Shown here one piece after another: positions 2,500 through 16,674 of a stretch of 36,184 bases of DNA. Position 1 is the stretch's first letter; each line of letters begins with the position of its first letter. The notes under the pieces were generated by a model. That model searched no databases. It worked only from the letters and a program-made list of their open reading frames with translations, and was not told the DNA's origin. Source of the stretch: Anaerolinea thermophila (GTDB taxonomy: Bacteria; Chloroflexota; Anaerolineae; Anaerolineales; UBA4823); contig DYGV01000024.1 of NCBI GenBank assembly GCA_020724505.1, forward strand, positions 1 to 36,184, given 5' to 3'. The position numbers and the translations under genes were made by a program.

Positions 2500-2967
2500 T
2501 TAATCTACCTGCTCAACCAGGTAATTTTGAATGCCCATCTGTTCAATTTGGTCAAGCTGGGCTTCCAACCAATCCAGGTGGTCTTCTTCATCTTTGAGGA
2601 TTGCCTCAAGCAACTCTCGCGTGCCATTGTCGCCCAACTCAACTGCCTGGCGGATACCCGCGTTATACGCTCGAATGGCGTCGGCTTCCGCTGCGGCGTC
2701 GTTTTTATGCTGGGAATGGACATCCGCGCCGATGTTGATCTTTTTTAGATTACTAACAACAGGGATGCCTTCCAGAAATATGATCCGCCCAATCAGCTTT
2801 TCGGCATGGCGCATTTCAGTTATTGCGCGTTTTTCAGCCGCCTCGTGCAGTTTTTCATAACGCCAATCCGCGCACATTTCGGAATGCACCATGTACTGAT
2901 TGATGGCTGTCAACTCATCGGATAACAGATCATTGAGCGTTGAGATGATTTTTTCGTCGCCTTTCAT
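2500..2967 (-). CDS. bfr: Bacterioferritin
   Basis: A 155-residue four-helix ferritin matching E. coli Bfr along its length (MKGD start, then ELTAINQY, EMRHAEKLIGRI, DEEDHLDWLE, ending MGIQNYLVEQVD). The di-iron ferroxidase ligands are present: Glu in DELTAIN, Glu and His in EMRHAE, Glu in the third helix (EADAIRAYN), Glu and His in DEEDH. Met in EMRHA sits where Bfr places its haem-binding Met52, so it should bind haem between subunits. Role: cytoplasmic 24-mer that oxidises and stores iron and limits Fenton chemistry. Iron storage fits the large Fe-S assembly operon a few kilobases away. Start is an ATG preceded by aaggaagat. Confidence 0.95.
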   Translation of the reverse strand: MKGDEKIISTLNDLLSDELTAINQYMVHSEMCADWRYEKLHEAAEKRAITEMRHAEKLIGRIIFLEGIPVVSNLKKINIGADVHSQHKNDAAAEADAIRAYNAGIRQAVELGDNGTRELLEAILKDEEDHLDWLEAQLDQIEQMGIQNYLVEQVD

Positions 2968-3123: not shown

Positions 3124-3152
3124 TTGCACAACCGGCGTAATACTATTACACT
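3124..3152 (+). promoter_or_regulatory. Sigma70-type promoter of the Cys-tail/rSAM operon
   Basis: TTGCAC (3124-3129), a 17-base spacer and TACACT (3147-3152) lie just upstream of the ribosome site gcggaggcgagc of the zinc-ribbon gene. This predicts a very short 5' leader. It is the only good promoter seen before the five-gene plus-strand run. The rest of the gap 2968-3123 shows nothing clear. Confidence 0.5.
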
Positions 3153-3168
3153 ATGAGCGGAGGCGAGC

Positions 3169-3528
3169 ATGAAAATCATCCTATATATTGTCGCCGCGAT
3201 TTTGATTTTCTTTGGCGTTTTATTTATTTGGGGCGCATTCGACCCAACCGCGCCGGATGGGTGGATTTTTGTTGGCGCGATGAGCGTTGGCGTCGGTTTA
3301 GCTTTGATCTGGTTTGCTCAGCGGCAAAAAGCTGGAACTGGCGCGCCCGGCCAGAATGTCACGCTGAACATTGACCTGCCCGCGAATGTAAGCGTTGACC
3401 AGATGAAATGTAAATCTTGCGGCGGCGCTCTAACCATGGAGAACATCAAGATGGTAGCCGGCGCGCCGGTTGTCACCTGTCCGTACTGTAATACAACATA
3501 TCAGCTCACCGAAGAGCCAAAATGGTGA
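3169..3528 (+). CDS. Small membrane protein with C-terminal zinc ribbon
   Basis: Encodes 119 residues. Two membrane segments come first (ILYIVAAILIFFGVLFIWG and WIFVGAMSVGVGLALIWF), then a short linker and a compact zinc-ribbon: CKSCGG about 25 residues before CPYCNTTYQL, two CX2C knuckles that should bind one Zn. The tail faces either the cytoplasm or the outside; a Zn ribbon suggests the cytoplasm. A strong ribosome site (ggagg) precedes the ATG. It is the first gene of the run leading to the DUF2207-like protein and the radical SAM pair, 96 bases before the next start, so it is probably cotranscribed. Its role there is unknown; a scaffold or quality-control partner for the membrane substrate is possible but unsupported. 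Confidence 0.75.
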   Translation: MKIILYIVAAILIFFGVLFIWGAFDPTAPDGWIFVGAMSVGVGLALIWFAQRQKAGTGAPGQNVTLNIDLPANVSVDQMKCKSCGGALTMENIKMVAGAPVVTCPYCNTTYQLTEEPKW

Positions 3529-3624
3529 ACCCAGCCTGGATGTTCCCAACAAAGATATTTGCAGATCACGGATTGGTTCCGAAAATACCTGGGCGTTTTG
3601 ATGACAGGTAAAGCGGGAGGGCTT

Positions 3625-5301
3625 ATGAAGAAAGCGCGATGGTTTTCCCTGGCAATCTTAATCATTTTGTCTCTGCTGCCAGCCGGCGTTTTTGCTCAAA
3701 GTTATCTCTTCTCTCTGGATGAATTACGCGCCGATGTGTACATCAATCAGGATGGCAGCGTCTCGCTGCTATACGAATTCGCCTTCACCAACGCGCCGGG
3801 CGCGCATCCCATTGACTACGTAGATATTGGTATGCCCAACCGTAGCTTTTCGATGGAAGGCGTTACTGCCCAGGTAAATGGGACGCCGGTCAAAGTCTCG
3901 GCGGCGGATTATCAAGGCAGCGGCGCAGGCTTTGCCGTCGTAATGGGTAGCCGATCTATCCCGCCCGGAGGTAAAGGGCGAGTTAGGGTCTTTATTCCCA
4001 AGATTGATCCCTGGCTGCGCACCGATTCGAAGGACCCAAACTACGCCAGTTTAGAGTTTTCCCCCACCTGGTTCGGCAAAGAATACGTGCAAGGGAAGAC
4101 GAATATGACCGTCACTTTCCATCTGCCGCCGGGAGTCAAACCGGAGGAGCCGCGCTGGCACACCAGCCCCAGTGGATTTTCCATAGAACCACTGACCGGC
4201 ATAGATGATCAGGGGCACGTCACCTATACATGGGGAAATCCTGCTGCTCTGGGTTATCAGCAATACAAGTTTGGCGCCTCCTTTCCGGCGCAATATGTGC
4301 CAGCCGGAGTGGTTGTAAATCCAACCATTTCTGAAACGTTGGGCATTGATCCGGGCGCGTTGAGCTCATGTATCTGCTTTGCGGGTATTATCGCCATATT
4401 CGCCGGCATCTTCTACGCCGCCAGCCGGTCTGCGGCGCAACGGAAACTCCAATATTTGCCACCCAAGATCGCCATCGAAGGATTAGGTATCAAACGCGGC
4501 CTTACCGCCGTCGAAGCCGCTATTTTGATGGAACAACCTCTAGACAAGGTATTGACCATGATCCTTTTTGGCTTGGTGAAGAAAGGCGCGGCTGAGGTGA
4601 TCAAACAGGACCCATTAGAAATCAAAGCCATTCAACCCGTGCCAGTGGAGTTGTTTGATTATGAAAAAGATTTCTTGCGTGCATTTCAAAAAACCTCCAT
4701 GCGCGAGCGCCGCGCCGATTTACAAAACATGATGATTGACCTGGTGAAGAGCGTATCCAACAAAATGAAAGGCTTTAGCCGAAAAGAAACGATCGCTTAT
4801 TATAAAGACATTATGGAACGCGCCTGGAAACAGGTCGAGAACGCACAAACCCCTGAAGTGCGCATGGAAGCTTTCGACAAATACATGGAATGGACCATGC
4901 TGGATCGGGATTACGACGACCGCACTCGTCGTGTATTCACCGGCCCGGTCTTTGTACCCCATTGGTGGGGACGCTACGATCCGACTTTCCGACCCTCTAC
5001 ATCTGCTGGTCGTCAAACTATCCCCACGCCATCCAGTTCCGGCGGAGCACCAGGGGGAGGATTTTCCTTGCCCAGCTTGCCTGGCTCTGCCTTTGCGGCT
5101 TCGATGGTGCGCGGCGTGCAGAGTTTCTCCAGCAGTGTCATCGGCAACGTCACAGATTTCACCAGCAGGATCACAAACCGCACCAACCCTCCCCCACCAC
5201 CCTCGACAACCCGCAGTTCCGGCGGTTTTGGGGGCGGTGGTTGCGCCTGCGCCTGCGCTTGTGCCGGTTGCGCCTGCGCCTGTGCAGGTGGCGGACGTTA
5301 G
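3625..5301 (+). CDS. DUF2207-like membrane protein with C-terminal Cys-Ala repeat tail (candidate modified substrate)
   Basis: Encodes 558 residues from the ATG at 3625, chosen because gggagg precedes it and it opens a clean signal peptide (MKKARWFSLAILIILSLLPA). A TTG 22 codons upstream is less likely. Residues ~25-240 form a beta-rich exported domain like the DUF2207 ectodomain (YLFSLDELRADVYINQDGSV). One membrane segment follows (~246-270), then a cytoplasmic helical region and a Ser/Pro/Gly-rich stretch. The end is striking: FGGGG, then CACACACAGCACACA, then GGGR. It has seven cysteines at 540, 542, 544, 546, 549, 551 and 553; the only others noticed are two in the membrane segment. By DUF2207 topology this tail is cytoplasmic, where the adjacent radical SAM enzyme (9-base gap) could reach it. 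The modification is inferred, not shown. Family function is unknown. Confidence 0.8.
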   Translation: MKKARWFSLAILIILSLLPAGVFAQSYLFSLDELRADVYINQDGSVSLLYEFAFTNAPGAHPIDYVDIGMPNRSFSMEGVTAQVNGTPVKVSAADYQGSGAGFAVVMGSRSIPPGGKGRVRVFIPKIDPWLRTDSKDPNYASLEFSPTWFGKEYVQGKTNMTVTFHLPPGVKPEEPRWHTSPSGFSIEPLTGIDDQGHVTYTWGNPAALGYQQYKFGASFPAQYVPAGVVVNPTISETLGIDPGALSSCICFAGIIAIFAGIFYAASRSAAQRKLQYLPPKIAIEGLGIKRGLTAVEAAILMEQPLDKVLTMILFGLVKKGAAEVIKQDPLEIKAIQPVPVELFDYEKDFLRAFQKTSMRERRADLQNMMIDLVKSVSNKMKGFSRKETIAYYKDIMERAWKQVENAQTPEVRMEAFDKYMEWTMLDRDYDDRTRRVFTGPVFVPHWWGRYDPTFRPSTSAGRQTIPTPSSSGGAPGGGFSLPSLPGSAFAASMVRGVQSFSSSVIGNVTDFTSRITNRTNPPPPPSTTRSSGGFGGGGCACACACAGCACACAGGGR

Positions 5302-5310
5302 GATCAATCT

Positions 5311-6645
5311 ATGAAATGGCTTCAACAAATCCGATCGAAGCCTGTTGCCAACGAGGCGGCCACGCCGAAGCTTTACTATTACGACCGCCAGAAACCCGGC
5401 GAGCGTTCGCGTATCCACCTACGCTTAGACGCTGATGGTAGCGGCTTATTGCTGGTGAATGCCAATCGAGTAGTACATCTCAACCCCTCCGCAGCACTCA
5501 TGGCTAAGCTGGCGTTGGATGGACAAACACCAGCGCAGGCGGTTCGCGAATTGACTCGTCGCTATCGTGTCGATCGGCAACAAGCTGAACAGGATTTTCG
5601 CCAAATCGCCCATCAAATTGAAGAGCTGACGCGACCTGATGGCGCATGCCCGGTGCATGATTTAGAGCTGGAAATCACCGCCCCATTTTCGGCGCGGCCG
5701 TCCGCTCCTTATCGCATGGATTTAGCCATCACCTACCGCTGCAATAACGACTGTAGCCATTGTTATAACGCCCGACCGCGCGACTTTACAGAGCTGCCGA
5801 CTGAAAAATGGAAAGCCATTCTCGACCGATTGTGGGAGATTGGCATTCCGCACGTGGTTTTTACCGGCGGAGAGCCTACACTGCGAGAAGACCTACCCGA
5901 ATTGATTCGACATGCACAAATGAATGGTCAGATCACCGGTTTAAATACCAACGGTCGTCGTTTGCGCGACCGCCATTATCTGGATACTTTGGTCGAAGCC
6001 GGGTTAGACCATGTGCAAATCACCCTTGAGTCTCACGATGCACAAATACATGACCGCATGGTCAACTGTCGCGGAGCTTGGCGTCAGACTGTGGCCGGCA
6101 TCCAAAATGCATTGGACAGTTCATTGTTTTTAATGACCAATACGACGATGCTGCGCCACAACGCGCCATGGATTGGCGAAACGCTTGAATTCCTGGCTTC
6201 TCTAGGAGTTCCAACAGTAGGTTTGAATGCCTTGATTTATTCGGGTAAAGGTGTAACATGCGGCACTGGACTCGGTGAGGAGGAACTTTCGCCTTTGTTA
6301 GAGGTGGCAAAACAGATCACTGCCCAAAATAACCAACGCCTGATCTGGTACACCCCAACGCAATATTGTCACTTTGACCCGGCTGCCCTGGAGTTGGGCG
6401 TCAAAGGTTGCACCGCCGCTCTCTACAACATGTGTATAGAACCCGACGGCGGCGTCATTCCCTGTCAATCGTACTATCATCAACTGGGGAATTTGCTCAC
6501 CGATGCCTGGGATTCGATCTGGAACCATGAACTTTCCACCCACTTGCGCGAGCGTCGCAATCTAGCCGATAAATGTCACAATTGCATACTGCTAGCCGAA
6601 TGCGGCGGGGGTTGTCCGCTGCTCCGTCTAGCTCTGGAAGAGTAA
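5311..6645 (+). CDS. Radical SAM/SPASM enzyme with N-terminal PqqD-like (RRE) domain
   Basis: Encodes 444 residues. Residues ~35-108 resemble PqqD, the leader-peptide-binding domain of RiPP enzymes (IHLRLDADGSGLLLVN, then a helical part). The radical SAM core starts at ~134 with CNNDCSHC (Cys144, Cys148, Cys151, the CX3CX2C site for the SAM-binding 4Fe-4S cluster) and has GGEPT at 186-190. The C-terminal SPASM domain shows Cys367, Cys375, Cys385, then the CX2CX5CX3C set (422, 425, 431, 435), enough for auxiliary clusters. This order matches peptide-modifying enzymes such as AlbA and PqqE, which form thioether or C-C bonds. The likely substrate is the Cys-Ala tail encoded just upstream. The Fe-S dependence fits the suf operon nearby. 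Substrate and bond type are inferred. Confidence 0.9.
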   Translation: MKWLQQIRSKPVANEAATPKLYYYDRQKPGERSRIHLRLDADGSGLLLVNANRVVHLNPSAALMAKLALDGQTPAQAVRELTRRYRVDRQQAEQDFRQIAHQIEELTRPDGACPVHDLELEITAPFSARPSAPYRMDLAITYRCNNDCSHCYNARPRDFTELPTEKWKAILDRLWEIGIPHVVFTGGEPTLREDLPELIRHAQMNGQITGLNTNGRRLRDRHYLDTLVEAGLDHVQITLESHDAQIHDRMVNCRGAWRQTVAGIQNALDSSLFLMTNTTMLRHNAPWIGETLEFLASLGVPTVGLNALIYSGKGVTCGTGLGEEELSPLLEVAKQITAQNNQRLIWYTPTQYCHFDPAALELGVKGCTAALYNMCIEPDGGVIPCQSYYHQLGNLLTDAWDSIWNHELSTHLRERRNLADKCHNCILLAECGGGCPLLRLALEE

Positions 6646-6656
6646 ACGAGGCTGCT

Positions 6657-7817
6657 ATGACCGCTATTCTGAGACCTTTCAAACGCTTATTCACGCCAGT
6701 CCATCCTATTCCAGCAGGTATATACCATTATCAATCACCCCCTGATGACCCACGCAATTACCGTTTGCACTTGCGCCTGGAAGAGTATGGCAGCGGGGTG
6801 TTAATCATCAACGCCACTGTGGTCTTGCACTTAAATCAGACCGCTGCTGAATATGCCTATTATCTTGTCAAGAATGTCCCGGCGGACGAAGTCGCTCGTC
6901 AGATGGCAGCGCGTTACCAGGTGCAGCCGGATCAAGCGCGGCGCGACTACGAGTTGCTATCGGAGCGCATCCAAACCCTTGCCACGACGCAAGATGTAGA
7001 TCCTGTCCTTTATCTGGATTTCGAACGTCAAAAACCATTTTCTGGGGAAATCTCTGCCCCCTATCGGTTGGACTGCGCTCTGACCTATCGTCTACCAGAA
7101 GACCAGCCTGTCGAAGCGGCGCCTATCGAACGAGTAGCGCGCGAATTGACCACCGACGAATGGTGCTCCATTCTGGACAAGGCATGGCAGGCTGGAGTTC
7201 CTCATGTCATCTTCACTGGCGGAGAACCCACTTTGCGGGATGATCTGCCAGCTCTGGTTGCTCACGCCGAACAATTAGGGCAGGTTAGCGGCTTGTTGAC
7301 CGGAGGTTTGCGCCTGGCAGATGAAATATACTTAGGGAAGTTGCTGCAAGCCGGTTTGGATCACCTCCTGCTAGTGTTGCAGCCCGAAAACGAGCAATCC
7401 TGGCAAGCAGTGGGCAACGCTCTAGTTGAAGATCTATATGTCGTCGTCCACATCACCGTGACAAATGACGACCGCCAGCAAATTACTACAATTATCCAAC
7501 GCCTGGCAAATATGGGCGTTCAACATATCTCGCTAAGCGCATCTGATGCGGCCTATGTCGACGCGCTCCATTTTGCCCGGCAAAAAGTCGCTGTTGCCAA
7601 CTTAGATCTGGTTTGGAATTTACCCACTCCCTATTCTGCGCTGCACCCTGTAGCTCTGGAATCTGAAGACGCAAAAATCGAAGGGGCGGGCCGCGCCTGG
7701 CTGTATGTTGAGCCAGATGGAGATGTTCGCCCCGCGCAAGGCGATCCTCGTATCTTGGGAAATTTGCTCAGGGATAATTTTGCCCAAATCTTTGGCAAAC
7801 AAGCTGCGCCAGCTTAG
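6657..7817 (+). CDS. Degenerate radical SAM paralogue with PqqD-like domain (cluster cysteines lost)
   Basis: Encodes 386 residues from the ATG at 6657, 11 bases after the previous stop. It parallels the upstream enzyme throughout: PqqD-like start (YRLHLRLEEYGSGVLIIN), then APYRLDCALTYR, GVPHVIFTGGEPTLRDDLP, and AWLYVEPDGDVRPAQGDP. Where the paralogue has CX3CX2C this one has RLPEDQPV, and the SPASM cysteines are absent (the end matching CX2CX5CX3C is missing). Only two Cys were counted. It should not bind an Fe-S cluster or cleave SAM, but the conserved GGEPT and PqqD-like parts suggest a selected, non-catalytic partner, perhaps a leader-binding or scaffolding subunit. The frame stays open 36 codons past the TAG and includes CPHGC; I do not regard this as convincing SPASM remnant. 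It could instead be a decaying duplicate. Confidence 0.85.
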   Translation: MTAILRPFKRLFTPVHPIPAGIYHYQSPPDDPRNYRLHLRLEEYGSGVLIINATVVLHLNQTAAEYAYYLVKNVPADEVARQMAARYQVQPDQARRDYELLSERIQTLATTQDVDPVLYLDFERQKPFSGEISAPYRLDCALTYRLPEDQPVEAAPIERVARELTTDEWCSILDKAWQAGVPHVIFTGGEPTLRDDLPALVAHAEQLGQVSGLLTGGLRLADEIYLGKLLQAGLDHLLLVLQPENEQSWQAVGNALVEDLYVVVHITVTNDDRQQITTIIQRLANMGVQHISLSASDAAYVDALHFARQKVAVANLDLVWNLPTPYSALHPVALESEDAKIEGAGRAWLYVEPDGDVRPAQGDPRILGNLLRDNFAQIFGKQAAPA

Positions 7818-7884
7818 TGGGCGGATTTTCACACCCGGATGCTGGCGCTCGCTTTGATGGCACGCCAACAGCGAATTTGCCCTC

Positions 7885-8637
7885 ATGGATGCACACGCCT
7901 GGCACACCCGCTTCAGTCAGCAAGCTAAATGGACAGCCAGTCTGCGCCAATACTTATTCGAACGCGTCGGGCTAAAAGAAGACGACCGAATTCTGGAAAT
8001 TGGCTGTGGCACCGGAGCAGTGCTTCATGTAATGATCCAGGAGACAAATTCCCGCCGGGTTTTTGGCCTGGACCTGGATTATACCTATCTATCACTCGCA
8101 GCGCACAATGCACCGCCCGCGCATCTGATCCAGGCAAATGCTCATGCCCTCCCCTTTCCCGATGGTTGCTTCGACATCGTATTCTGTCACTTTTTATTGC
8201 TATGGGTGAAAAATCCGCTGTTGACGGTGAAAGAGATGACTCGCATCACACGACAAGGAGGGTGGGTCCTGGCGCTCGCAGAGCCAGATTACGGCGGACG
8301 TATTGATTACCCCGAAGCACTGGCTGAGATCGGTCATATGCAAGAGGAAGCGTTGCGACAACAGGGCGCGGAAACGCGCCTCGGTCGTCGTCTGGCCGCG
8401 CTCTTCATTGCTGCAGAGCTGCACGAGATTGTGACCGGCGTGTTGGGCGGCGAGTGGGAGGTTCAACACGCCGCGGCAGATTGGCAACAAGAGTGGGAAG
8501 TGTTAGAAGACGACCTGCGCGGCTGGCTTACGCCAGATGAATTATCCACCTTGCGCGAGATAGATCGGAGCGCTCATGAAATCGGCGAGCGCATTCTTTA
8601 TGTCCCCACTTTTTACGCCATGGGGCGGAAAGACTGA
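7885..8637 (+). CDS. Class I SAM-dependent methyltransferase
   Basis: Encodes 250 residues with the Rossmann methyltransferase order: motif I ILEIGCGTGAVLHV, the acidic end of strand 2 (VFGLDLDYTYL), an AlPFPD-type loop (ANAHALPFPDGCFDIVF) and the post-III segment GGWVLALAEPDYGGR. This is the Methyltransf_11/UbiE-like group; the substrate cannot be read from the sequence. The start ATG at 7885 has no clear ribosome site, but an in-frame TGA at 7855 limits other choices. It is the last gene of the plus-strand run with the Cys-tail protein and radical SAM pair, 67 bases after the previous stop, and converges with the suf operon 11 bases later. By context it may methylate the modified tail or a cofactor; that is inference. 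Confidence 0.85.
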   Translation: MDAHAWHTRFSQQAKWTASLRQYLFERVGLKEDDRILEIGCGTGAVLHVMIQETNSRRVFGLDLDYTYLSLAAHNAPPAHLIQANAHALPFPDGCFDIVFCHFLLLWVKNPLLTVKEMTRITRQGGWVLALAEPDYGGRIDYPEALAEIGHMQEEALRQQGAETRLGRRLAALFIAAELHEIVTGVLGGEWEVQHAAADWQQEWEVLEDDLRGWLTPDELSTLREIDRSAHEIGERILYVPTFYAMGRKD

Positions 8638-8648
8638 GCCAGAGTAAC

Positions 8649-8999
8649 TCACTCCTCTAAAGGCAGGCCAATCTCAATCTGACCATCCACCACCCGAACA
8701 GGATAGGCAGGAATGTCTATCACCGCGGGCAAAGAAAGCACCTTTCCATTGCGAACATCAAACCGCGCCCCGTGACGCGGGCAAATGATCTCAAAGTCCT
8801 CCAACTCGCCGTCTCCCAACGGACCGTCATCATGGCTACATAGATCAGCGATAGCAAACAATTTTCCGGCGATATTAAAGATCACAATCGGTTGTCCGTC
8901 TATCTCCAGGAATAGACGCTCGCCAGGGGGGATATCTGCCGCCTGTCCAACTGGAATGTATTCAACTTTTGATGGCTCGATTTCCAGGTAATTGTACAT
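8649..8999 (-). CDS. Rieske-type 2Fe-2S ferredoxin
   Basis: Encodes 116 residues: a soluble single-domain Rieske protein of the NirD/dioxygenase-ferredoxin kind. The cluster sites are CSHDDGPLGDG (Cys-X-His) and CPRHGARFD (Cys-X2-His), spaced normally, with the GARFD end typical of the fold. No signal peptide or membrane segment is seen, so it is cytoplasmic. It is the last gene of the suf operon, 9 bases after sufU, with ggggggct before its ATG. Small Rieske ferredoxins are often found at this place in suf operons; an electron-donor role in cluster assembly is suggested by position but not established. Confidence 0.9.
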   Translation of the reverse strand: MYNYLEIEPSKVEYIPVGQAADIPPGERLFLEIDGQPIVIFNIAGKLFAIADLCSHDDGPLGDGELEDFEIICPRHGARFDVRNGKVLSLPAVIDIPAYPVRVVDGQIEIGLPLEE

Positions 9000-9008
9000 A
9001 GCCCCCCA

Positions 9009-9404
9009 TTACTCAACAAGATCGTCGCTGGCTTCGCCTAATCCATATACTCCGGCTTTGAGCACCTTGAGCGATAACAGCGCGCATTTCAAACGCACTG
9101 GCCCAAGCTCCAAGCCAAGCATGGATAGAACATCATCCTTAGATAGTGCCTTAACCTCATCCAGAGACTTTCCCACCACCGATTCCATCAAAAGATCCGC
9201 TGAAGCTTGAGAGATGGCGCAACCATGTCCATCAAAAGCAGCCTCTTGAACGACCCCGTCTTTATCTACACGAAGTTCAACGCGGATATGATCGCCGCAC
9301 AACGGGTTATCATCTTCAAATGCAATGTCATGAGGATTTAATGATCCTCGATATTGCGGATTTTTATAGCGGTCAATGATCAGTTCGCGATATAGGTCAT
9401 CCAT
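9009..9404 (-). CDS. sufU: SufU, Fe-S assembly zinc protein / sulfur acceptor
   Basis: Encodes 131 residues of the IscU/NifU-N fold in the SufU form. Three ligand cysteines are visible in their usual places: NPLCGDHIRVEL, FDGHGCAISQASADLLM and VRLKCALLSLKVL. The Asp in CGD supplies the fourth ligand. In Firmicutes SufU binds Zn and takes the persulfide sulfur from SufS by zinc-ligand swapping, delivering it to SufBCD; the same is expected here. The start ATG lies 5 bases after the sufS stop, so translation is coupled. The protein lacks the C-terminal domain of NifU and no IscS/IscA genes are seen in this window. Confidence 0.95.
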   Translation of the reverse strand: MDDLYRELIIDRYKNPQYRGSLNPHDIAFEDDNPLCGDHIRVELRVDKDGVVQEAAFDGHGCAISQASADLLMESVVGKSLDEVKALSKDDVLSMLGLELGPVRLKCALLSLKVLKAGVYGLGEASDDLVE

Positions 9405-9409
9405 GATTT

Positions 9410-10654
9410 TTATATGCCAAAGATGCGGCGCACCGTATATAACGATTCCGCCAATTTATCAACTTCTTCTTTTGTATTGTAGAGATAAAAGCTAGCCCGA
9501 GCGCTGGCTGGTATGCCATATTTTTCATGCAAGGGCATCGCGCAATGGTGGCCGGCGCGGATGGCGATCCCTTGTGTATCCAGGATTTGTGAGACATCAT
9601 GGGGGTGAATACCTACCAGCGTAAACGACGCGACCCCCCCCTTATGCTCCGCGGTAGGACCAAGCAACTTCACCCCTGGCACCTCCTCTAATCTCTCTAA
9701 AGCGTAGGCGATGATTTCTTGTTCATGCTCGGCAATGACATCCATCCCCACCGATTGAAGATAATCAATCGCTGCGCCTAATCCTACAGCCTCAGCAATT
9801 GCTGGCGTACCGGCCTCGAATTTATACGGAATTTCATTGGGGGCAAAGGAGCGTAAATAAACGCGTTTGATCATGTCTCCGCCACCTAAAAATGGCGGCA
9901 TCGCTTCTAAAAGTTCTTTGCGGCCATACAATACACCAATGCCGGTGGGACCGCACATTTTATGCGAGGAAAACGCCAGAAAATCAACGTCCAATGCCTG
10001 CACATCCACCGGAAAATGCGGCACTGATTGCGCCCCATCAATCAAGGCGATCGCGCCGGCTTGGTGCGCCAACTGAACCATTTCCGCTGCAGGGTTGATG
10101 GTTCCCAACACATTCGACATGTGGGTAAAAGCTACCAATTTGGGCTGCATTTCCAACAACGTTCGGTAAACGCCCAAATCCAGCAGACCATCTTCGCCCA
10201 CAGGGATGAATTCCAGCCGCACATGCTTTTCTGCGGCCAGAATCTGCCAAGGCACCAGGTTGGAGTGATGTTCCATCTCGGTCAATACAACCACATCGCC
10301 GGCTTCCAGGTTCGCCCGGCCCCAACTGTACGCCACCAGGTTGATCGCCTCGGTGGCGTTGCGGGTAAAAATAATCTGCCGCGCAGAAGGCGCGTGAATG
10401 AAACGCGCTGCTTTCTCTCTGGCAGCCTCGTACAGCGCAGTCGCCTCTTCTGCCAATACATGGATGCCGCGGTGAATATTGGCGTTGGACGAGTGATAGA
10501 AATCGTCCATTGCCTGAATCACCGCTTGTGGCTTTTGACTGGTGGCGGTCGAATCTAGATAAATCAGCGGAACCCCATCATGGACATGCCGTGAAAGGAT
10601 GGGGAAATCCGCCCGCACTCGAGCGACATCCAGCCGTTTAGTCTTCGTTATCAT
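9410..10654 (-). CDS. sufS: SufS cysteine desulfurase
   Basis: Encodes 414 residues, the normal length for a group II cysteine desulfurase. It releases sulfur from L-cysteine as an enzyme-bound persulfide and passes it to SufU. Visible features: N-terminal RADFPILSR and YLDSTATSQKP, the PLP pocket with HHSN and DGAQSVPHFPVDV, the Schiff-base lysine in SSHKMCGPTGIGVLYG, and the catalytic Cys in IRAGHHCAMPLHEK. The short active-site loop fits the SufS group that depends on SufU. The ATG overlaps the end of the preceding small gene by 17 bases, which ties the two translationally. Confidence 0.97.
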   Translation of the reverse strand: MITKTKRLDVARVRADFPILSRHVHDGVPLIYLDSTATSQKPQAVIQAMDDFYHSSNANIHRGIHVLAEEATALYEAAREKAARFIHAPSARQIIFTRNATEAINLVAYSWGRANLEAGDVVVLTEMEHHSNLVPWQILAAEKHVRLEFIPVGEDGLLDLGVYRTLLEMQPKLVAFTHMSNVLGTINPAAEMVQLAHQAGAIALIDGAQSVPHFPVDVQALDVDFLAFSSHKMCGPTGIGVLYGRKELLEAMPPFLGGGDMIKRVYLRSFAPNEIPYKFEAGTPAIAEAVGLGAAIDYLQSVGMDVIAEHEQEIIAYALERLEEVPGVKLLGPTAEHKGGVASFTLVGIHPHDVSQILDTQGIAIRAGHHCAMPLHEKYGIPASARASFYLYNTKEEVDKLAESLYTVRRIFGI

Positions 10655-10994
10655 CTTCGACGCTCACCACGGCTCTCGGCGCTCGCCCTTGCGGTTTGAT
10701 TTTCCGACGTCGGCGCACCGGCTTGCGAATATTCGGCGACGTCTTGGGACACCACAGCACATGATCAGGAACCATCCATCCATCCGTCAAATAGACATTA
10801 TCCTGGAATTGGACAGCAACCATCTTTTGATCCACTTGAACAACTGTCCCGATCAGCCAATCGCGAATGCGACCGCCATTGTCCTCGTGATCGCACAAGA
10901 CTTCCACATGATCACCAACGCGATAGATTTCTTCTCGATCTGGCGAAGAAGTGAAGTGTAGCCCTGACAACTTTACCTCCTGACTTTTATCCAT
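10638..10994 (-). CDS. Uncharacterised small protein inside the suf operon
   Basis: Encodes 118 residues from the ATG at 10994, or 110 from a TTG at 10970 that has the better ribosome site (aggaggtaaag directly before it); the TTG start looks more likely. The middle (YRVGDHVEVLCDHEDNGGRIRDWLIGTVVQVDQKMVAVQF) looks like a small SH3-like or KOW-like beta barrel. The end is strongly basic (RKPVRRRRKIKPQGRAPR) and then acidic (VEDDNED). No cysteine pattern for a metal site: the only two Cys are in LCDHED and LWCPK. It sits between sufD and sufS and overlaps sufS, so a link to Fe-S assembly or to control of this operon (RNA binding) is possible. I do not recognise the family. Confidence 0.7.
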   Translation of the reverse strand: MDKSQEVKLSGLHFTSSPDREEIYRVGDHVEVLCDHEDNGGRIRDWLIGTVVQVDQKMVAVQFQDNVYLTDGWMVPDHVLWCPKTSPNIRKPVRRRRKIKPQGRAPRAVVSVEDDNED

Positions 10995-11024
10995 CCAACT
11001 ATAGATAGAATATCTCTGGATGGA
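10990..11024 (-). promoter_or_regulatory. Inverted repeat at the start of the suf-operon small gene
   Basis: tccatcca (10990-10997) and tggatgga (11017-11024) form an 8-bp perfect stem with a 19-base loop. The ATG at 10994-10992 lies inside the stem. If the mRNA folds this way the ATG is hidden while the downstream TTG start with its aggagg site is free. A protein operator is the other reading. Confidence 0.4.
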
Positions 11025-11124
11025 AATTTTCTCTTTTTTTTCACAAATACCAATAGCGAGCCGACTGCTTACCGCCTCGCTGAATTTTCGGAGTCTATTC
11101 CTCCAGCCTCCTTGTGGTTTTTGT

Positions 11125-11166
11125 CGCCGGGCAATAATGAAGTAATTGCAAATTTATTGCCCGGCG
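11125..11166 (-). promoter_or_regulatory. Strong hairpin between sufD and the downstream suf genes
   Basis: cgccgggcaataa (11125-11137) pairs perfectly over 13 bp with ttattgcccggcg (11154-11166), 16-base loop. It starts 7 bases after the sufD stop. On the transcribed strand it is followed by acaaaaacc, not by a U tract, so it is not a standard terminator. It could partly attenuate transcription or protect the 3' end of a processed sufCBD message. The ~180-base gap has no other obvious feature apart from a weaker hairpin near 11056-11080. Confidence 0.5.
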
Positions 11167-11173
11167 GATCGGA

Positions 11174-12547
11174 TCAACCCATTTTATCCATAATCGCATC
11201 CTGGAAGCGCGTTCGCACGCCTTCAAAGGGGATGCGTTGCATAATCGGATCAAAAAATCCTTCAACGATTAATCGTTCTGCTTCACGGTAGGGAATGCCC
11301 CGGCTGCGCAGATAGAACACCTGATCAGCATCTATTTTACCAACCGTTGCTCCATGTGTACAGCGTACATCGTCTGCCATAATCTCCAGACCCGGAATCG
11401 AGTCGGCGCGCGCCTGTTTACTGAGCACCAAATTGCGATTGGCCTGATACCCATCGGTTTTCTGGGCACCCGGTGCAACATAGATCATCCCTTGCCACAC
11501 CGAACGACTCTTATCGCGCAACGCGCCTTTGAATAGCAGATCACTGGTGGTGTGCGGCGCCAGGTGGTTCTGTTGAGTGTCATGATCTAGATGCTGAACG
11601 CCATCCGTGAAGTAGAAACCCGACATCCTACCTGAAGCTCCCTGACCAGCAAGGTCGAGTTCGGAGAAGTTTTTAGTCAGATGACTACCAATCGCGCCAA
11701 AGATCCAATCCAGGTTTGCCTCGCGTTCGACGCGCACTCGCTCGTGGCTGAAATTCCACACATGTTCGCCCCAGGATTGAAGTTCTACAAAACGGAAATT
11801 GGCACCTTCATCCACCAGTATTTCAACAATACCGGCGTGAAACGCCTGTCCATCTGCCTCAGTGTGAGAGGCGGATTCATGAACATACGTCAAGGATGCG
11901 CCACGATCCACCCAAACCAGGATATGATCTATATACGCGAGATTCACCCCTGCTCCCCAGAGGATGCTATGCAAAGGCTTTTCAACCTGCACACCAGGTG
12001 GAATGTAAATAAACACGCCCGTTTGGGCTAGCGCGCCGGCCAGCGCAGCAAATTTGCCTTCCTCCGGATGCACGATCTGCCCCAGGACATGCTCCACCAA
12101 ATGGGGATACTCATGCTCCGCGGTGCGCAAATCGGTAAAGATGACACCTTTTTGCCGCAGCGAGTCATCTAACTCAACACGTGCCCCATGGGCAGTGATG
12201 ACAATCTGCCCACCATGCGCCTCGCCAGCCAAAGGGCGCAACAAATTCTCCGGTGGCTCCGGCAAACGCAATCGCTCCAGATCCACCTGCGAAGGCAAGC
12301 GAAACACGCCGCTGTTCATACCACGCAAATCGGTGCGTCGCCAGGGTTCATCGTTGGTCGTGGGCATGGGCAAACGCTCGAACAGTACCCAGGCGCGCAG
12401 ACGATATGAGCGGATGGCCTCTGCGATGTTATCATCAGCCAGCCCACGTACCAAATCCGAAGTAAAGCTAAATTCTTGTGCAATCGCTGCCTGGCGGCCA
12501 TCTCCGCCGCGGGAGCGAGAGATTACAACTCTTTCTCGTTCAACCAT
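11174..12547 (-). CDS. sufD: SufD, Fe-S scaffold subunit
   Basis: Encodes 457 residues. The N-terminal helical part has MPTTNDEPWRRTDLRGM, as in SufD proteins, and the core is the SufB/SufD beta-helix. The C-terminal region has the conserved CTHGATVGKIDADQVFYLRSRGIP stretch, followed by EAERLIVEGFFDPIMQRIP. SufD pairs with SufB on the SufC ATPase to build Fe-S clusters in the cytoplasm. The ATG is preceded by gaggttataca and lies 32 bases after sufB ends. At 457 residues it is a little longer than E. coli SufD. Confidence 0.95.
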   Translation of the reverse strand: MVERERVVISRSRGGDGRQAAIAQEFSFTSDLVRGLADDNIAEAIRSYRLRAWVLFERLPMPTTNDEPWRRTDLRGMNSGVFRLPSQVDLERLRLPEPPENLLRPLAGEAHGGQIVITAHGARVELDDSLRQKGVIFTDLRTAEHEYPHLVEHVLGQIVHPEEGKFAALAGALAQTGVFIYIPPGVQVEKPLHSILWGAGVNLAYIDHILVWVDRGASLTYVHESASHTEADGQAFHAGIVEILVDEGANFRFVELQSWGEHVWNFSHERVRVEREANLDWIFGAIGSHLTKNFSELDLAGQGASGRMSGFYFTDGVQHLDHDTQQNHLAPHTTSDLLFKGALRDKSRSVWQGMIYVAPGAQKTDGYQANRNLVLSKQARADSIPGLEIMADDVRCTHGATVGKIDADQVFYLRSRGIPYREAERLIVEGFFDPIMQRIPFEGVRTRFQDAIMDKMG

Positions 12548-12579
12548 TGTATAACCTCGATGAATGCGCTTTCGTCGCC

Positions 12580-13986
12580 TTAACCGATGGAGCCTTCCAT
12601 TTGAAGCTGGATCAGCCGATTCATTTCGATGGCATATTCCATCGGCAATTCTTTGACCAACGGCTCGATGAAACCAGAAACCACCATGGTCGTGGCCTCT
12701 TCTTCGCTCAAACCACGGCTCATCAAATAAAACAACTGTTCCTCGCCGACCTTTGAGACAGAGGCTTCGTGACCCACGGTGACATCGTCCTCATCAATCT
12801 CAATGTATGGGTACGTATCCGAGCGCGCCTGGCTATCCAACAAAAGCGCATCACAAACCACATTCGATTTAACGTCCGTCGCGCCTTTGTATACTTTGAG
12901 CAAGCCACGATAAGAAGCTCGTCCGCTTCCCTTGCTGATGGACTTGGAAGTGATCTTGCTGCTGGTATGCGGTGCAAAATGCAATACTTTGCCTCCTGCG
13001 TCTTGATGTTGACCTGGGCCGGCAAAAGCCATGGATAGGATTTCGCCGTGCGCTCCAGGCCCTAACAAATAGCAGGACGGATATTTCATCGTCAGCTTCG
13101 AACCGAGGTTAGCGTCCACCCATTCCATGGTGGCGCCTTCATGCACCAGCGCCCGCTGAGTAACCAGGTTGTATACATTTACCGACCAATTCTGGATCGT
13201 GGTGTAGCGCACCCGGGCGTTTTTCTTCACCACAATCTCGATCACGCCGGAATGGAACGAATCGGTTGAGTAGATGGGCGCGGTGCAACCTTCAACATAG
13301 TGAATCTGCGCCCCTTCGTCGGCAATGATCAGCGTTCGCTCAAACTGACCAATATTGGCGACATTCAAACGGAAATATGCCTGAAGAGGCAGGTCAATTT
13401 TCACACCCGGCGGCACGTAGATGAAGGAGCCACCCGACCAAACCGCGCTGTTCAGAGCTGCAAATTTGTTATCCTCGATCGGGATGACTGTGCCAAAATA
13501 TTCGCGGAACAGATCTGGGTGCTGACGCAGCCCATCTTCGATGCTGACAAATATGACGCCTTGTTTTTCTAAATGTTCCTGAACGCGGTGGTACACCATC
13601 TCAGATTCGTATTGCGCGCCCACGCCAGCCAGAAACTTACGCTCAGCCTCCGGAATGCCCAACCGATCGAAGGTGTTTTTGATCGTCTCAGGGACGTCAT
13701 CCCATGAACGGCCTTCGCTCTCAGCCGGCTTCACATAATAATAGATGTCATCCAGATTCAGGTTGGACAAATCGCCGCCCCATGTAGGCATCGGGCGTTT
13801 CATGAAATGATCTAGCGCTTTCAGGCGAAATTCCAGCATCCATTTTGGTTCGCCTTTCATCGCAGAAATTTGCTCTACGATTTCCCGATCCAGACCTTTG
13901 CGCGACTTAAAAACGTAAGTCTCTGGATCTCTGAACCCATATTTATAATCACCAATACCTTCTAAGATCTGCGCATCACTTGCCAT
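12580..13986 (-). CDS. sufB: SufB, Fe-S scaffold subunit
   Basis: Encodes 468 residues. It starts with [21 protein letters not shown], the standard SufB beginning, has [19 protein letters not shown], and a core with [19 protein letters not shown] and [18 protein letters not shown] (conserved Cys). The end [20 protein letters not shown] and [14 protein letters not shown] matches SufB closely. SufB is the site of cluster assembly in the SufBC2D complex. A strong ribosome site (ggaggtactca) precedes the ATG, 64 bases after sufC. Confidence 0.98.
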
Positions 13987-14050
13987 TGAGTACCTCCAGC
14001 AAACATCCGCAGTTCAACTTCTCTTTTGGAGAAGAAACGGCGGAGTGAAC

Positions 14051-14827
14051 CTAACCATTCATCGCCTCTGCGCTTTTCTCGCGCAACCAATCATATCCAT
14101 GCTCTTCCAAATGAAGAGCCAGTTCAGCGCCACCCGATTCCACGATTCGCCCATCTAACATGATATGCACAAAATCGGGCTTGATGTAGTTCAAGATGCG
14201 TTGATAATGGGTGATCACTAATACTCCCAAATCTGGGCCGCGCAGAGTATTCACGCCTTCAGAAACGATGCGTAAGGCATCAATATCCAACCCGGAGTCG
14301 GTTTCGTCCATGATCGCGATTTCGGGGCGCAATACAGCCATCTGCAACACCTCAGCGCGTTTCTTCTCCCCGCCAGAGAACCCCTCGTTTAGATAACGGC
14401 TGGCAAAGGTGTGATCCATCTTCAACAGGTCCATGGTCTCCTTGAGCATCCGGCGAAATTCAGGCACTGGTATGCCTTTATCCTCAGGGTTAATCGCTCG
14501 CCGTTTGGCGTTAATCGCCGAGCGCAAGAAGTTAGCCACCGAAACTCCCGGAATTGCCACCGGGTATTGAAAAGCCAGGAACAGCCCCAGATGAGCGCGC
14601 TCGTCCGGTTCCAATTCCAAGATGTTTTTACCTTTGAACCAAACCTCACCTTCGGTCACCTCATAGTTTGGGTGACCCATCAAAGTGTACGCCAGTGTGG
14701 ACTTTCCCGTGCCGTTTGGTCCCATCAAGGCATGCACCTCGCCCTGACGTACAATTAAGTTCACCCCTTTCAATATTTCGCGCCCTTCAACGCTTACATG
14801 CAAGTTGCGAATATCAAGCTCTGACAT
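14051..14827 (-). CDS. sufC: SufC, ATPase of the Fe-S assembly complex
   Basis: Encodes 258 residues, an ABC-type ATPase that is cytoplasmic and not a transporter. Walker A is GPNGTGKST, the Q-loop region is [14 protein letters not shown], the ABC signature is [15 protein letters not shown], and Walker B is [17 protein letters not shown], all in SufC form (the ETDSGLD wording is specific to SufC). ATP-driven dimerisation opens the SufB-SufD core during cluster building. It is the first gene of the operon, with aggag before its ATG and a well-formed promoter/operator 70-130 bases upstream. It ends with TAG. Confidence 0.98.
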
Positions 14828-14853
14828 GAAATAAACTCCTCGCGTTCGAAATC

Positions 14854-14869
14854 ACAGGTTTAAACCTGT
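14854..14869. promoter_or_regulatory. Perfect 16-bp palindrome in the sufC leader
   Basis: acaggttt-aaacctgt is a perfect palindrome within the transcribed leader, 27 bases before the sufC ATG and downstream of its -10 box. A repressor could block elongation here. It is distinct in sequence from the AT-rich palindrome between the two promoters. Confidence 0.4.
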
Positions 14870-14897
14870 CTGATTTGCCCAGATTTTAGTCGTCTGC

Positions 14898-14926
14898 ATT
14901 ATAACAGAGGCAGACCCCCAAGTCAA
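14898..14926 (-). promoter_or_regulatory. suf operon promoter
   Basis: On the minus strand: TTGACT (14926-14921), a 17-base spacer, TATAAT (14903-14898). This is close to the sigma70 consensus and points into sufC. Its -35 box is part of the central palindrome shared with the sufR promoter. Confidence 0.75.
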
Positions 14927-14958
14927 TAATATTTAGGATAATAATCTTAAATATTGAC
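14922..14958. promoter_or_regulatory. Shared operator palindrome between sufC and sufR
   Basis: Outer arms gtcaata (14922-14928) and tattgac (14952-14958) enclose inner arms atatttaggat (14929-14939) and atcttaaatat (14944-14954), 10 of 11 paired. The outer arms contain both -35 boxes, so one bound dimer would shut both promoters. The obvious candidate ligand is the adjacent SufR-type protein. The sequence is not the CAAC-N6-GTTG element I recall for cyanobacterial SufR. Confidence 0.6.
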
Positions 14959-14982
14959 AAAATTCTAAGGATATGCTATACT
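14954..14982 (+). promoter_or_regulatory. sufR promoter
   Basis: TTGACA (14954-14959), a 17-base spacer and TATACT (14977-14982), near consensus and pointing into sufR. The -35 box overlaps the right arm of the palindrome, which predicts autoregulation. Confidence 0.75.
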
Positions 14983-15002
14983 CAGCAACGTCAGGGAGTA
15001 GG

Positions 15003-15695
15003 ATGATGTTTGCAGAACTGGAAGCCAAAAACACTCGAGACCGCGTCCTTCAGACGTTACTGGTGCGCGAGCGATGCACAATCAATGAGCTTGCAGAGGC
15101 GGTTGAGATTAATCCGATTTCCGTGCGCCATCACATCGCTAAGCTGGAAGCGGATGGGTTAGTAAGCTCTGAAGAAGAAAGGCACGGCGTTGGCCGTCCA
15201 CGACGCTTGTATTTTCTCACCGAAAAGGGGCGAGAACAATTCCCCACGCGGTATATACGGCTTACCGTTCGCTTGTTGGAACAACTCAAAGACATTTTAC
15301 CCGCCCCGGTCATCAACCGTCTTTTCACCCAAATGGCAGAAGAGATGGCGTCCGATTATCGCAATGAAGCAGAAGGCTTAACACCCGAGGCTCGCCTGGA
15401 TTTGGTGCGCCAGCTACTCACCTCTGAAGGTTTCAACGTAGAGGTAGTTAAGGAAGGTGACGCTTATTTGATTCGCGAATCCAACTGCCCATATTATCAT
15501 GTGGGGCAGAATCATCCGGAAGTTTGCTCCGTTGACCAAACGCTGATCTCAACGATTTTGGATGTGCCGGCGCAGAAAATTCAGTGTCTGTTACACGGTG
15601 ATACCCATTGCACTTATGTCATTCCTGTAAACCTGATCGCCTCTACAGATATTCAGACCATCGAATCCGATTTACCTGATAAGACTCGATTGTGA
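15003..15695 (+). CDS. sufR: SufR-like Fe-S sensing transcriptional repressor
   Basis: Encodes 230 residues from the ATG at 15003 (gggagtagg just before it; an upstream ATG at 14973 overlaps the -10 box and is discarded). Residues ~1-70 are a winged helix: INELAEAVEINPISVRHHIAKLEADGLV and the wing GVGRPRRLYFLTEKG. The C-terminal part has four cysteines placed to bind an Fe-S cluster: NCPYYHVGQNHPEVCSVD (CX12C), then CLLHGDTHC. This matches SufR, which represses suf genes while its own cluster is intact. It is divergent from sufC with a shared palindrome and is followed by a SufT-like gene. The spacing of the last two Cys differs from what I recall for cyanobacterial SufR, so the symbol is tentative. 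Confidence 0.8.
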   Translation: MMFAELEAKNTRDRVLQTLLVRERCTINELAEAVEINPISVRHHIAKLEADGLVSSEEERHGVGRPRRLYFLTEKGREQFPTRYIRLTVRLLEQLKDILPAPVINRLFTQMAEEMASDYRNEAEGLTPEARLDLVRQLLTSEGFNVEVVKEGDAYLIRESNCPYYHVGQNHPEVCSVDQTLISTILDVPAQKIQCLLHGDTHCTYVIPVNLIASTDIQTIESDLPDKTRL

Positions 15696-16229: not shown

Positions 16230-16613
16230 ATGAATACTTCCACTGATATACAAACTCACCTTCCCCTGACAGAGGTTACCTATTTCATCCTGCTCAGCCT
16301 TGCTCCTGAACCTCGTCACGGATACGCGATTATGAAAGACGTAGAACGCTTGAGTCAAGGGCGTGTATCTCTCAGCACGGGTACGCTTTATGGGGCATTA
16401 AAGCGCTTGCTTGAACAAGGTTGGATTATTCGGATGCAGGGCGTCGAAGAGGATCACAAAGGTCGAGAGCGCAAAGCCTATCGCCTGACGAGTCTGGGTC
16501 AAAGCATCTTACAGGCTGAAATCGAAAGATTGAACTCTTTAGTGGATGCCGCCAGCAGGAAAAACTTGGGGAATTCAAAAGCAATTTACCCCAATCAAAG
16601 CCGCCACTCTTAA
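16230..16613 (+). CDS. PadR-family transcriptional repressor
   Basis: Encodes 127 residues from the ATG at 16230. The winged helix has the PadR wording: TEVTYFILLSLAPEPRHGYAI, LSTGTLYGALKRLLEQGWI and KGRERKAYRLTSLGQSIL, followed by a C-terminal dimerisation helix (LQAEIERLNSLVDAASRK). PadR proteins bind palindromes as dimers and are relieved by small ligands. A matching palindrome sits on its own -10 box. The next gene starts 61 bases downstream on the same strand. PadR genes next to membrane proteins beginning YPRRFRDEFGEEM are a common pairing, and here that partner is an exosortase fusion. Confidence 0.92.
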   Translation: MNTSTDIQTHLPLTEVTYFILLSLAPEPRHGYAIMKDVERLSQGRVSLSTGTLYGALKRLLEQGWIIRMQGVEEDHKGRERKAYRLTSLGQSILQAEIERLNSLVDAASRKNLGNSKAIYPNQSRHS

Positions 16614-16674
16614 CCATCTCTATTCAGGCGTTTTCGAGAAGTGCAGAAACTGGGGCGACCGACCAAAAGGTTTC

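Follow-up and report, generated by a model that had tools for sequence, protein, structure and literature searches.

A membrane protein with an invariant Cys-Ala tail and a co-occurring radical SAM enzyme in Anaerolineales: a predicted substrate-maturase pair

Introduction

The enzymology of ribosomally synthesized and post-translationally modified peptides (RiPPs) centres on short peptides, which are cut off and then exported. The locus analysed here raises the question of what an enzyme of RiPP type may act on beside a large membrane protein. It lies in a stretch of 36,184 nucleotides from Anaerolinea thermophila (the window; GenBank contig DYGV01000024.1 of assembly GCA_020724505.1), which is contig C208 in a 4.1 Mb draft genome. 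The closest relatives in the named genome collection were Chloroflexota, mainly Anaerolineales. Five open reading frames (ORFs), P0001-P0005, form an operon at 3169-8637. Every gene is on the + strand, and the core gaps are 9 bases (P0002/P0003) and 11 bases (P0003/P0004), as the initial annotation, made from the sequence alone, had described. P0002 is a membrane protein with a Cys-Ala tail and P0003 is a radical S-adenosylmethionine (SAM) enzyme. We give a probability of about 0.7 to the reading that the operon is a substrate-maturase system, in which P0003, with P0004 and P0005, would modify the anchored tail and the tail would stay as a thiol-derived group. The features on which this reading turns are as follows.

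P0002, 3625..5301, + strand: 558 amino acids (aa); predicted signal peptide, beta-rich ectodomain, one transmembrane helix, cytosolic domain, helical hairpin and Cys-Ala tail; proposed substrate
Cys-Ala tail CACACACAGCACACAGGGR, 5242..5298, + strand: residues 540-558 of P0002; proposed core for modification
P0003, 5311..6645, + strand: 444 aa; PqqD-like RiPP recognition element (RRE), radical SAM and SPASM domains; proposed maturase

Conservation of the Cys-Ala tail

A homology search of 199 genomes of the class found relatives of P0002 in 49 of them, and their tails fell into three sets. The A-type tail reads (CA)2-5-G-(CA)3-GGGR and the C-type tail has the same letters with the Gly displaced (...CACACACAGGGR). 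The B-type tail, found in more distant relatives, is a repeat of about 50 residues of the form ACHSACHSACV...VHDACHSAC. Its CHSACH is formally a CX3CH heme c motif. We rejected this identity, because neighbouring repeats overlap in their Cys and a cytosolic location is predicted for the tail. The C-terminal tryptic peptide of P0002 in the window is SSGGFGGGGCACACACAGCACACAGGGR.

The final 17 residues were invariant across 59 relatives of P0002 that share 29-58% identity and extend from Chloroflexota to Asgard archaea. The alignment had 31 invariant columns, and 17 of them were the tail. Among 100 distinct A and C tails, all ended in GGGR-stop, synonymous codons differed at every tail position examined and the last residue used all six Arg codons. 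Because the tail is invariant in homology-selected relatives while its synonymous codons vary, its conservation is above chance. The sequences thus indicate that selection is acting on the tail residues, and a low-complexity or DNA-level artefact was rejected on the same grounds.

A DNA pattern for A/C tails, run against 84,980 genomes, matched at least 80 loci. The listed loci belonged to Chloroflexota, Fermentibacterota, Aminicenantes, Zixi-, Coates- and Edwardsbacteria, Acidobacteriota, one actinobacterial lineage and four Asgard groups, and they included the cultured Bellilinea caldifistulae, Levilinea saccharolytica, Ornatilinea apprima and Leptolinea. The tail gene was readable in 79 of 80 listed loci and ended in GGGR-stop in all 79; the last GGR and the stop lie outside the search pattern. 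The homology-selected set of tails is smaller than this one and free of its pattern bias. The Asgard archaea with the tail were those at loci L080, L081, L088, L112, L127 and L147, some of which have an adjoining zinc-ribbon gene or methyltransferase. At L088 and L127 the enzyme is elsewhere in the genome, which suggests an old transfer or deep ancestry.

Co-occurrence of the tail and the radical SAM enzyme

Among the 199 genomes, 46 were tailed (17 with the A pattern, 5 more with C and 24 with B). An enzyme of the P0003 family was found in 46/46, either adjacent or on another contig; these genomes cover 18 families, and kinship means that the 199 are not independent trials. At E<=1e-45, relatives of P0003 were detected in 45 of the 46, and the remaining genome, G118, has the enzyme beside the tail (L054). 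Only 6 of the 153 tail-less genomes had a P0003 match. In five of these (G005, G006, G024, G128 and G157), the gene adjoins a contig end or the genome is not complete; G192 has only a cluster-less paralogue of the P0004 type.

Among the matches listed, 54 tails were followed by 2 kb or more of sequence, and in 48 of them a live enzyme lay directly downstream. The exceptions were L083 and L090, in which the enzyme is convergent and nearby, and L088, L127, L142 and L103, in which it is elsewhere in the same genome. The link therefore persists where the two genes are unlinked. In a B-type locus from another class of the phylum, the enzyme was again adjacent. A tail that commonly stands without a radical SAM partner, which the initial annotation had named as the observation that would count against it, was not what these genomes showed.

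The initial annotation had also proposed that the precursor is a large anchored protein and not a short peptide. That the substrate is such a protein is well supported by the co-occurrence of tail and enzyme (46/46 genomes; 48/54 directly downstream, with all six exceptions in the same locus or genome); the modification itself is a prediction. Comparatively, PF09972 was present in 139/199 genomes, so the DUF2207 scaffold superfamily alone does not predict the enzyme. We tried the tail as a general DUF2207 feature and rejected it, as the PF09972 genomes show no such link to the enzyme.

The membrane protein P0002

The AlphaFold model of P0002 had a mean pLDDT of 85. It places a confident beta-rich ectodomain at residues 26-240, after the signal peptide, a cytosolic domain at 295-451, a helical hairpin at 487-520 and a disordered tail. 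Two further features of the protein bear on its topology and on recognition by the enzyme.

Transmembrane helix of P0002, 4351..4455, + strand: residues 243-277; long; from hydropathy and model
Helical segment preceding the tail, 5071..5196, + strand: residues 483-524, LPG...TNPPP; moderately conserved; helices 487-506 and 509-520 in the model

Most of the P0002 relatives examined have basic residues after their last transmembrane helix. Because of this positive charge on the C-terminal side of the helix, the tail is predicted to lie in the cytosol and to share P0003's side of the membrane. The majority fraction of residues 483-524 was 0.60 vs 0.31 in the preceding Pro/Ser linker, and we take this segment as a candidate RRE recognition sequence.

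P0002 had been described as DUF2207-like. The protein itself had no match to the Pfam DUF2207 families (PF09972/PF20990) at E<=0.1, no match to TIGR04222 and no fitting family in Pfam or NCBIfam, and that part of the description did not hold. What stands is a link through a distant relative. The B-type relative at L055 matched PF09972 with 31.0 bits (cut-off 24.4; 3.5e-7) and reached 18.4 of 33 bits for PF20990. A B-type relative also matched TIGR04222 at 1.1e-9; the best B-type scores were 38.3-40 bits against the NCBIfam cut-off of 43 bits, and no genome of the 199 had TIGR04222 (near_uncomplex) above this cut-off. With one B-type relative above the PF09972 cut-off and close to that of TIGR04222, the scaffold is most reasonably placed in the DUF2207/TIGR04222 superfamily, as a divergent member. 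P0002 has the predicted DUF2207-like layout of a secreted N-terminal domain, a membrane segment and a cytosolic C-terminal domain (hydropathy and model). A PDB sequence search with P0002 gave only chance-level matches. For the ectodomain (window 3700-4344), the top Foldseek matches in the PDB were ribophorin I/Ost1 of the oligosaccharyltransferase and the N-terminal domain of M1 aminopeptidases, with low whole-chain TM-scores.

The radical SAM enzyme P0003

P0003 matched PqqD (PF05402 at 2.7e-8, over the cut-off), Radical_SAM and SPASM in Pfam. Together with its CNNDCSHC motif (C144xxxC148xxC151), these matches confirmed its assignment as an RRE, radical SAM and SPASM enzyme. Its SPASM Cys residues, C367-X12-G380-X4-C385 ... 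C422xxC425-X5-C431xxxC435, fit CX9-15GX4C...CX2CX5CX3C. The optional last Cys of the seven-Cys SPASM form is lacking, and the protein ends nine residues past C435. The nine cluster Cys (radical SAM and SPASM) were invariant over 42 sequences, and CxxxCxxC was kept in 115/115 P0003-like proteins. The model of P0003 (pLDDT 90) shows strands followed by three helices in the RRE region (residues 21-106), and the N-terminal stretch resembles the lasso-peptide RRE TfuB1 by sequence. The closest folds found by Foldseek were SkfB, SuiB with bound precursor, and CteB. P0003 was below the cut-off of the NCBIfam radical SAM equivalogs (PqqE, mycofactocin, GeoRSP, ACGX and others), the best being PqqE with 124.7 of 381.35 bits. 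The B-type enzyme was likewise below the NCBIfam cut-offs (ahbD, 136.8 of 500 bits; ACGX, 100 of 400 bits).

In a tree of 110 enzymes, those of the B tails formed one long-branched group, separate from A, C and D. Enzyme and tail therefore changed together. D is a sister enzyme group that has its own C-terminal Cys extension, e.g. GGGGCSGCSGSCGTGG (L083:2062-3744, L090:2783-4429, L215:8053-9702 and L218:5855-7648). These enzymes adjoin a short, tail-less relative of the cytosolic domain of P0002, as though the enzyme had taken over the Cys tail.

Partner genes and surroundings of the operon

The other genes of the operon are listed below.

P0001, 3169..3528, + strand: 119 aa; two transmembrane helices and a C-terminal CxxC...CxxC zinc-ribbon-like domain (ORF, hydropathy)
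P0004, 6657..7817, + strand: 386 aa; paralogue of P0003 with an RRE-like N-terminus and without the radical SAM cluster Cys; proposed non-catalytic partner
P0005, 7885..8637, + strand: 250 aa; class I methyltransferase (Pfam Methyltransf_11, 3.9e-21)

The cluster-less paralogue and the methyltransferase were both recovered as first described. P0004 matched Radical_SAM and, weakly, PqqD in Pfam and has no CxxxCxxC, and P0005 matched Methyltransf_11. The CxxxCxxC motif was present in 0/45 P0004-like proteins and was also absent from five dead paralogues at C-type loci, which points to a conserved loss of the cluster motif in the homologues of P0004. The methyltransferase gene accompanies the radical SAM gene when the latter is unlinked from the tail gene.

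A relative of P0001 accompanies the tail gene across the pattern-selected loci, being present at 53/57 tailed loci with sufficient upstream sequence among the matches listed. The reading of P0001 as a zinc-ribbon protein was sustained by the Cys pattern (CKSC...CPYC) and not by the Pfam search, in which all zinc-ribbon models were below their own cut-offs. B-type operons encode, instead, another membrane protein with a zinc ribbon (18 loci) together with a coiled-coil protein (19 loci). At L058, the coiled-coil protein (3709-4230) and a zinc-ribbon membrane protein longer than P0001 (4234-5448) lie 3' of the enzyme. The single promoter first proposed for the operon was not borne out: five promoter-like sites were found vs 5.2 expected by chance, none of them upstream of the operon on the + strand.

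The flanks of the operon (window 2500-2967 and 8649-15695), as read from translations, contain SUF-type iron-sulfur genes with a regulator and a ferritin-like gene. We rejected these surroundings as a functional context, as they were not recurrent at related loci. Clustering of the neighbouring ORFs of at least 100 aa revealed no real gene family recurrent at A-type loci beyond P0001-P0005, and no recurrent separate precursor gene, peptidase or transporter/exporter; a conserved very small ORF is thus not fully excluded. A defence system was also rejected, because the PADLOC matches reflected generic radical SAM or methyltransferase similarity only. Farther along, the window encodes an exosortase-like membrane protein (16546-19197) and, directly 3' of it, a 977-aa protein (19194-22127), both identified by eye. 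The end of the latter is PEP-CTERM-like (PEPEEWLLIGASLILLAYLLQARRKEW), and the two might be a dedicated sorting pair.

Comparison with known systems

The initial annotation knew of no described system of this form. A search of the open-access literature brought up no account of the radical SAM form, the two tails or the extension into Asgard archaea. However, a 2025 paper put forward TIGR04222 membrane proteins with Cys tails as MNIO substrates (PMC12452194), so the idea of a large Cys-tailed membrane precursor was already in print, as a prediction and with another enzyme. Both cases have a large multi-domain membrane protein of homologous scaffold, with a C-terminal low-complexity Cys-rich tail, beside a peptide-modifying enzyme. 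They differ in that the enzyme here is of the RRE-radical SAM-SPASM type and that the tail is predicted to be cytosolic rather than periplasmic. The tail is also a letter-perfect Cys-Ala sequence, where the MNIO candidates have Cys scattered among Ser/Gly. Co-occurrence with the enzyme is near total here, whereas MNIO is absent from one third of genomes with TIGR04222 genes (PMC12452194). The MNIO family PF05114 was over its cut-off in 31/199 genomes, including that of the window, where it lies on another contig (C198). MNIO as the true enzyme was rejected because it was not found at the tail loci.

P0003 shares its architecture and fold with SkfB, SuiB and CteB. Their known precursors are short peptides, whereas the likely substrate here is a 558-residue membrane protein; among the clustered ORFs no short precursor peptide was found at the locus, and P0002 was the only candidate substrate. 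Cys-directed radical chemistry on a protein is known from anSME and QhpD (PMC8326336), which act on defined sites in an enzyme or its subunit and not on a repetitive tail of a membrane protein. In thuricin CD, the two radical SAM proteins TrnC and TrnD form a complex in which only one radical SAM activity is strictly needed (PMC12093266). P0004 differs in lacking the cluster ligands, and a P0003-P0004 complex is a conjecture from analogy. The DUF2207 protein SMU.243 of S. mutans has a large extracellular N-terminus and an intracellular C-terminus with a Gly/Ser-rich stretch (PMC10457818). P0002 has the same layout, with the tail side cytosolic as in DUF2207 generally (PMC10457818), but no Cys tail is reported there and the DUF2207 family is not tied to the enzyme in the class.

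Proposed mechanism and alternatives

In the reading that we prefer, P0002 would sit in the membrane and expose its C-terminal half to the cytosol. There, P0003 would dock on it through the PqqD-like RRE, probably on the helical stretch that leads into the tail, and apply radical SAM/SPASM chemistry to the Cys/Ala tail, which is probably built into something chemically new within the cell. SkfB and CteB form thioethers and SuiB forms a Lys-Trp bond. As the products of these fold neighbours differ, the fold does not fix the chemistry. Cys-derived thioether links are our best guess by analogy with SkfB and CteB, and the carbon-carbon link made by SuiB keeps other chemistry open. The enzyme-dead P0004 might act as a binding partner or scaffold, and P0005 might add methyl groups as a further modification. 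The finished tail would be neither cleaved nor exported, as suggested by its exceptional conservation and by neighbourhoods in which neither a peptidase nor an exporter is recurrent, and would remain a fixed, membrane-anchored, thiol-derived group. Beside P0001, it could plausibly handle redox equivalents or metals at the cytosolic face of the membrane.

Several points weigh against this interpretation. The modification of the tail is a prediction. The set of 80 loci was chosen by a DNA pattern over most of the tail, and agreement within the pattern is by construction. The tail at L125 lies at a contig end in a draft genome with only a P0004-like match, and several P0003-like genes are distant from the tail gene. 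Furthermore, a tail that acts as a helper of the enzyme, such as a donor of clusters or electrons, would give the same co-occurrence, and so would a third process to which both contribute.

The tail might thus be unmodified, being a multi-Cys metal or iron-sulfur site that provides the radical SAM enzyme with a cluster or electrons, or a membrane tether for it. Dense Cys without another core residue would suit such a site, the operon in the window adjoins ferritin-like and SUF genes, and co-occurrence alone cannot tell a helper from a substrate. We nevertheless consider it unlikely, given that the SUF neighbourhood does not recur at A-type loci, that the RRE is a peptide-binding domain and most enzymes among the closest solved folds modify peptides, and that a donor site does not obviously need letter-perfect Ala spacing and a fixed GGGR end. 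A larger pathway, in which P0003 makes a small cofactor or modifies another peptide and the Cys-tailed protein uses, senses or holds the product, would agree with best NCBIfam scores to PqqE and related enzymes, far below the cut-off as they are, and with enzyme and methyltransferase genes lying apart from the tail gene. We regard this as improbable, since A-type neighbourhoods offer no recurrent precursor, peptidase or transporter among ORFs of at least 100 aa, and the joint shift of tail type and enzyme clade is what direct contact would produce. The RiPP-like gene content (RRE, radical SAM, SPASM and methyltransferase) might even suggest a conventional RiPP, with the tail cut off and exported as a small peptide and P0002 as an oversized leader. 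This seems very improbable for a tail that is nearly constant from bacteria to archaea, unlike diversifying natural products, on a scaffold that is a conserved membrane protein, with no recurrent peptidase or exporter.

Implications

The natural reading of the substrate-maturase system is a housekeeping protein modification with an anchored membrane protein as substrate and a target sequence scarcely changed from bacteria to Asgard archaea. The chances seem about even that the tail represents an undescribed protein cofactor common to both: a cytosolic Cys/Ala tail, permanently anchored in the membrane, whose post-translational cross-links would come from a radical SAM enzyme dedicated to it, in many cases partnered by a dead paralogue. 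Such a cofactor would come in at least two chemical variants, CACACA and ACHSACHSACV, which follow the two clades of the enzyme. Because cultured strains carry the tail, the system is directly testable. If the reading is true, it would assign a function to part of the DUF2207/TIGR04222 scaffold and would provide a radical SAM counterpart to the predicted MNIO pairing.
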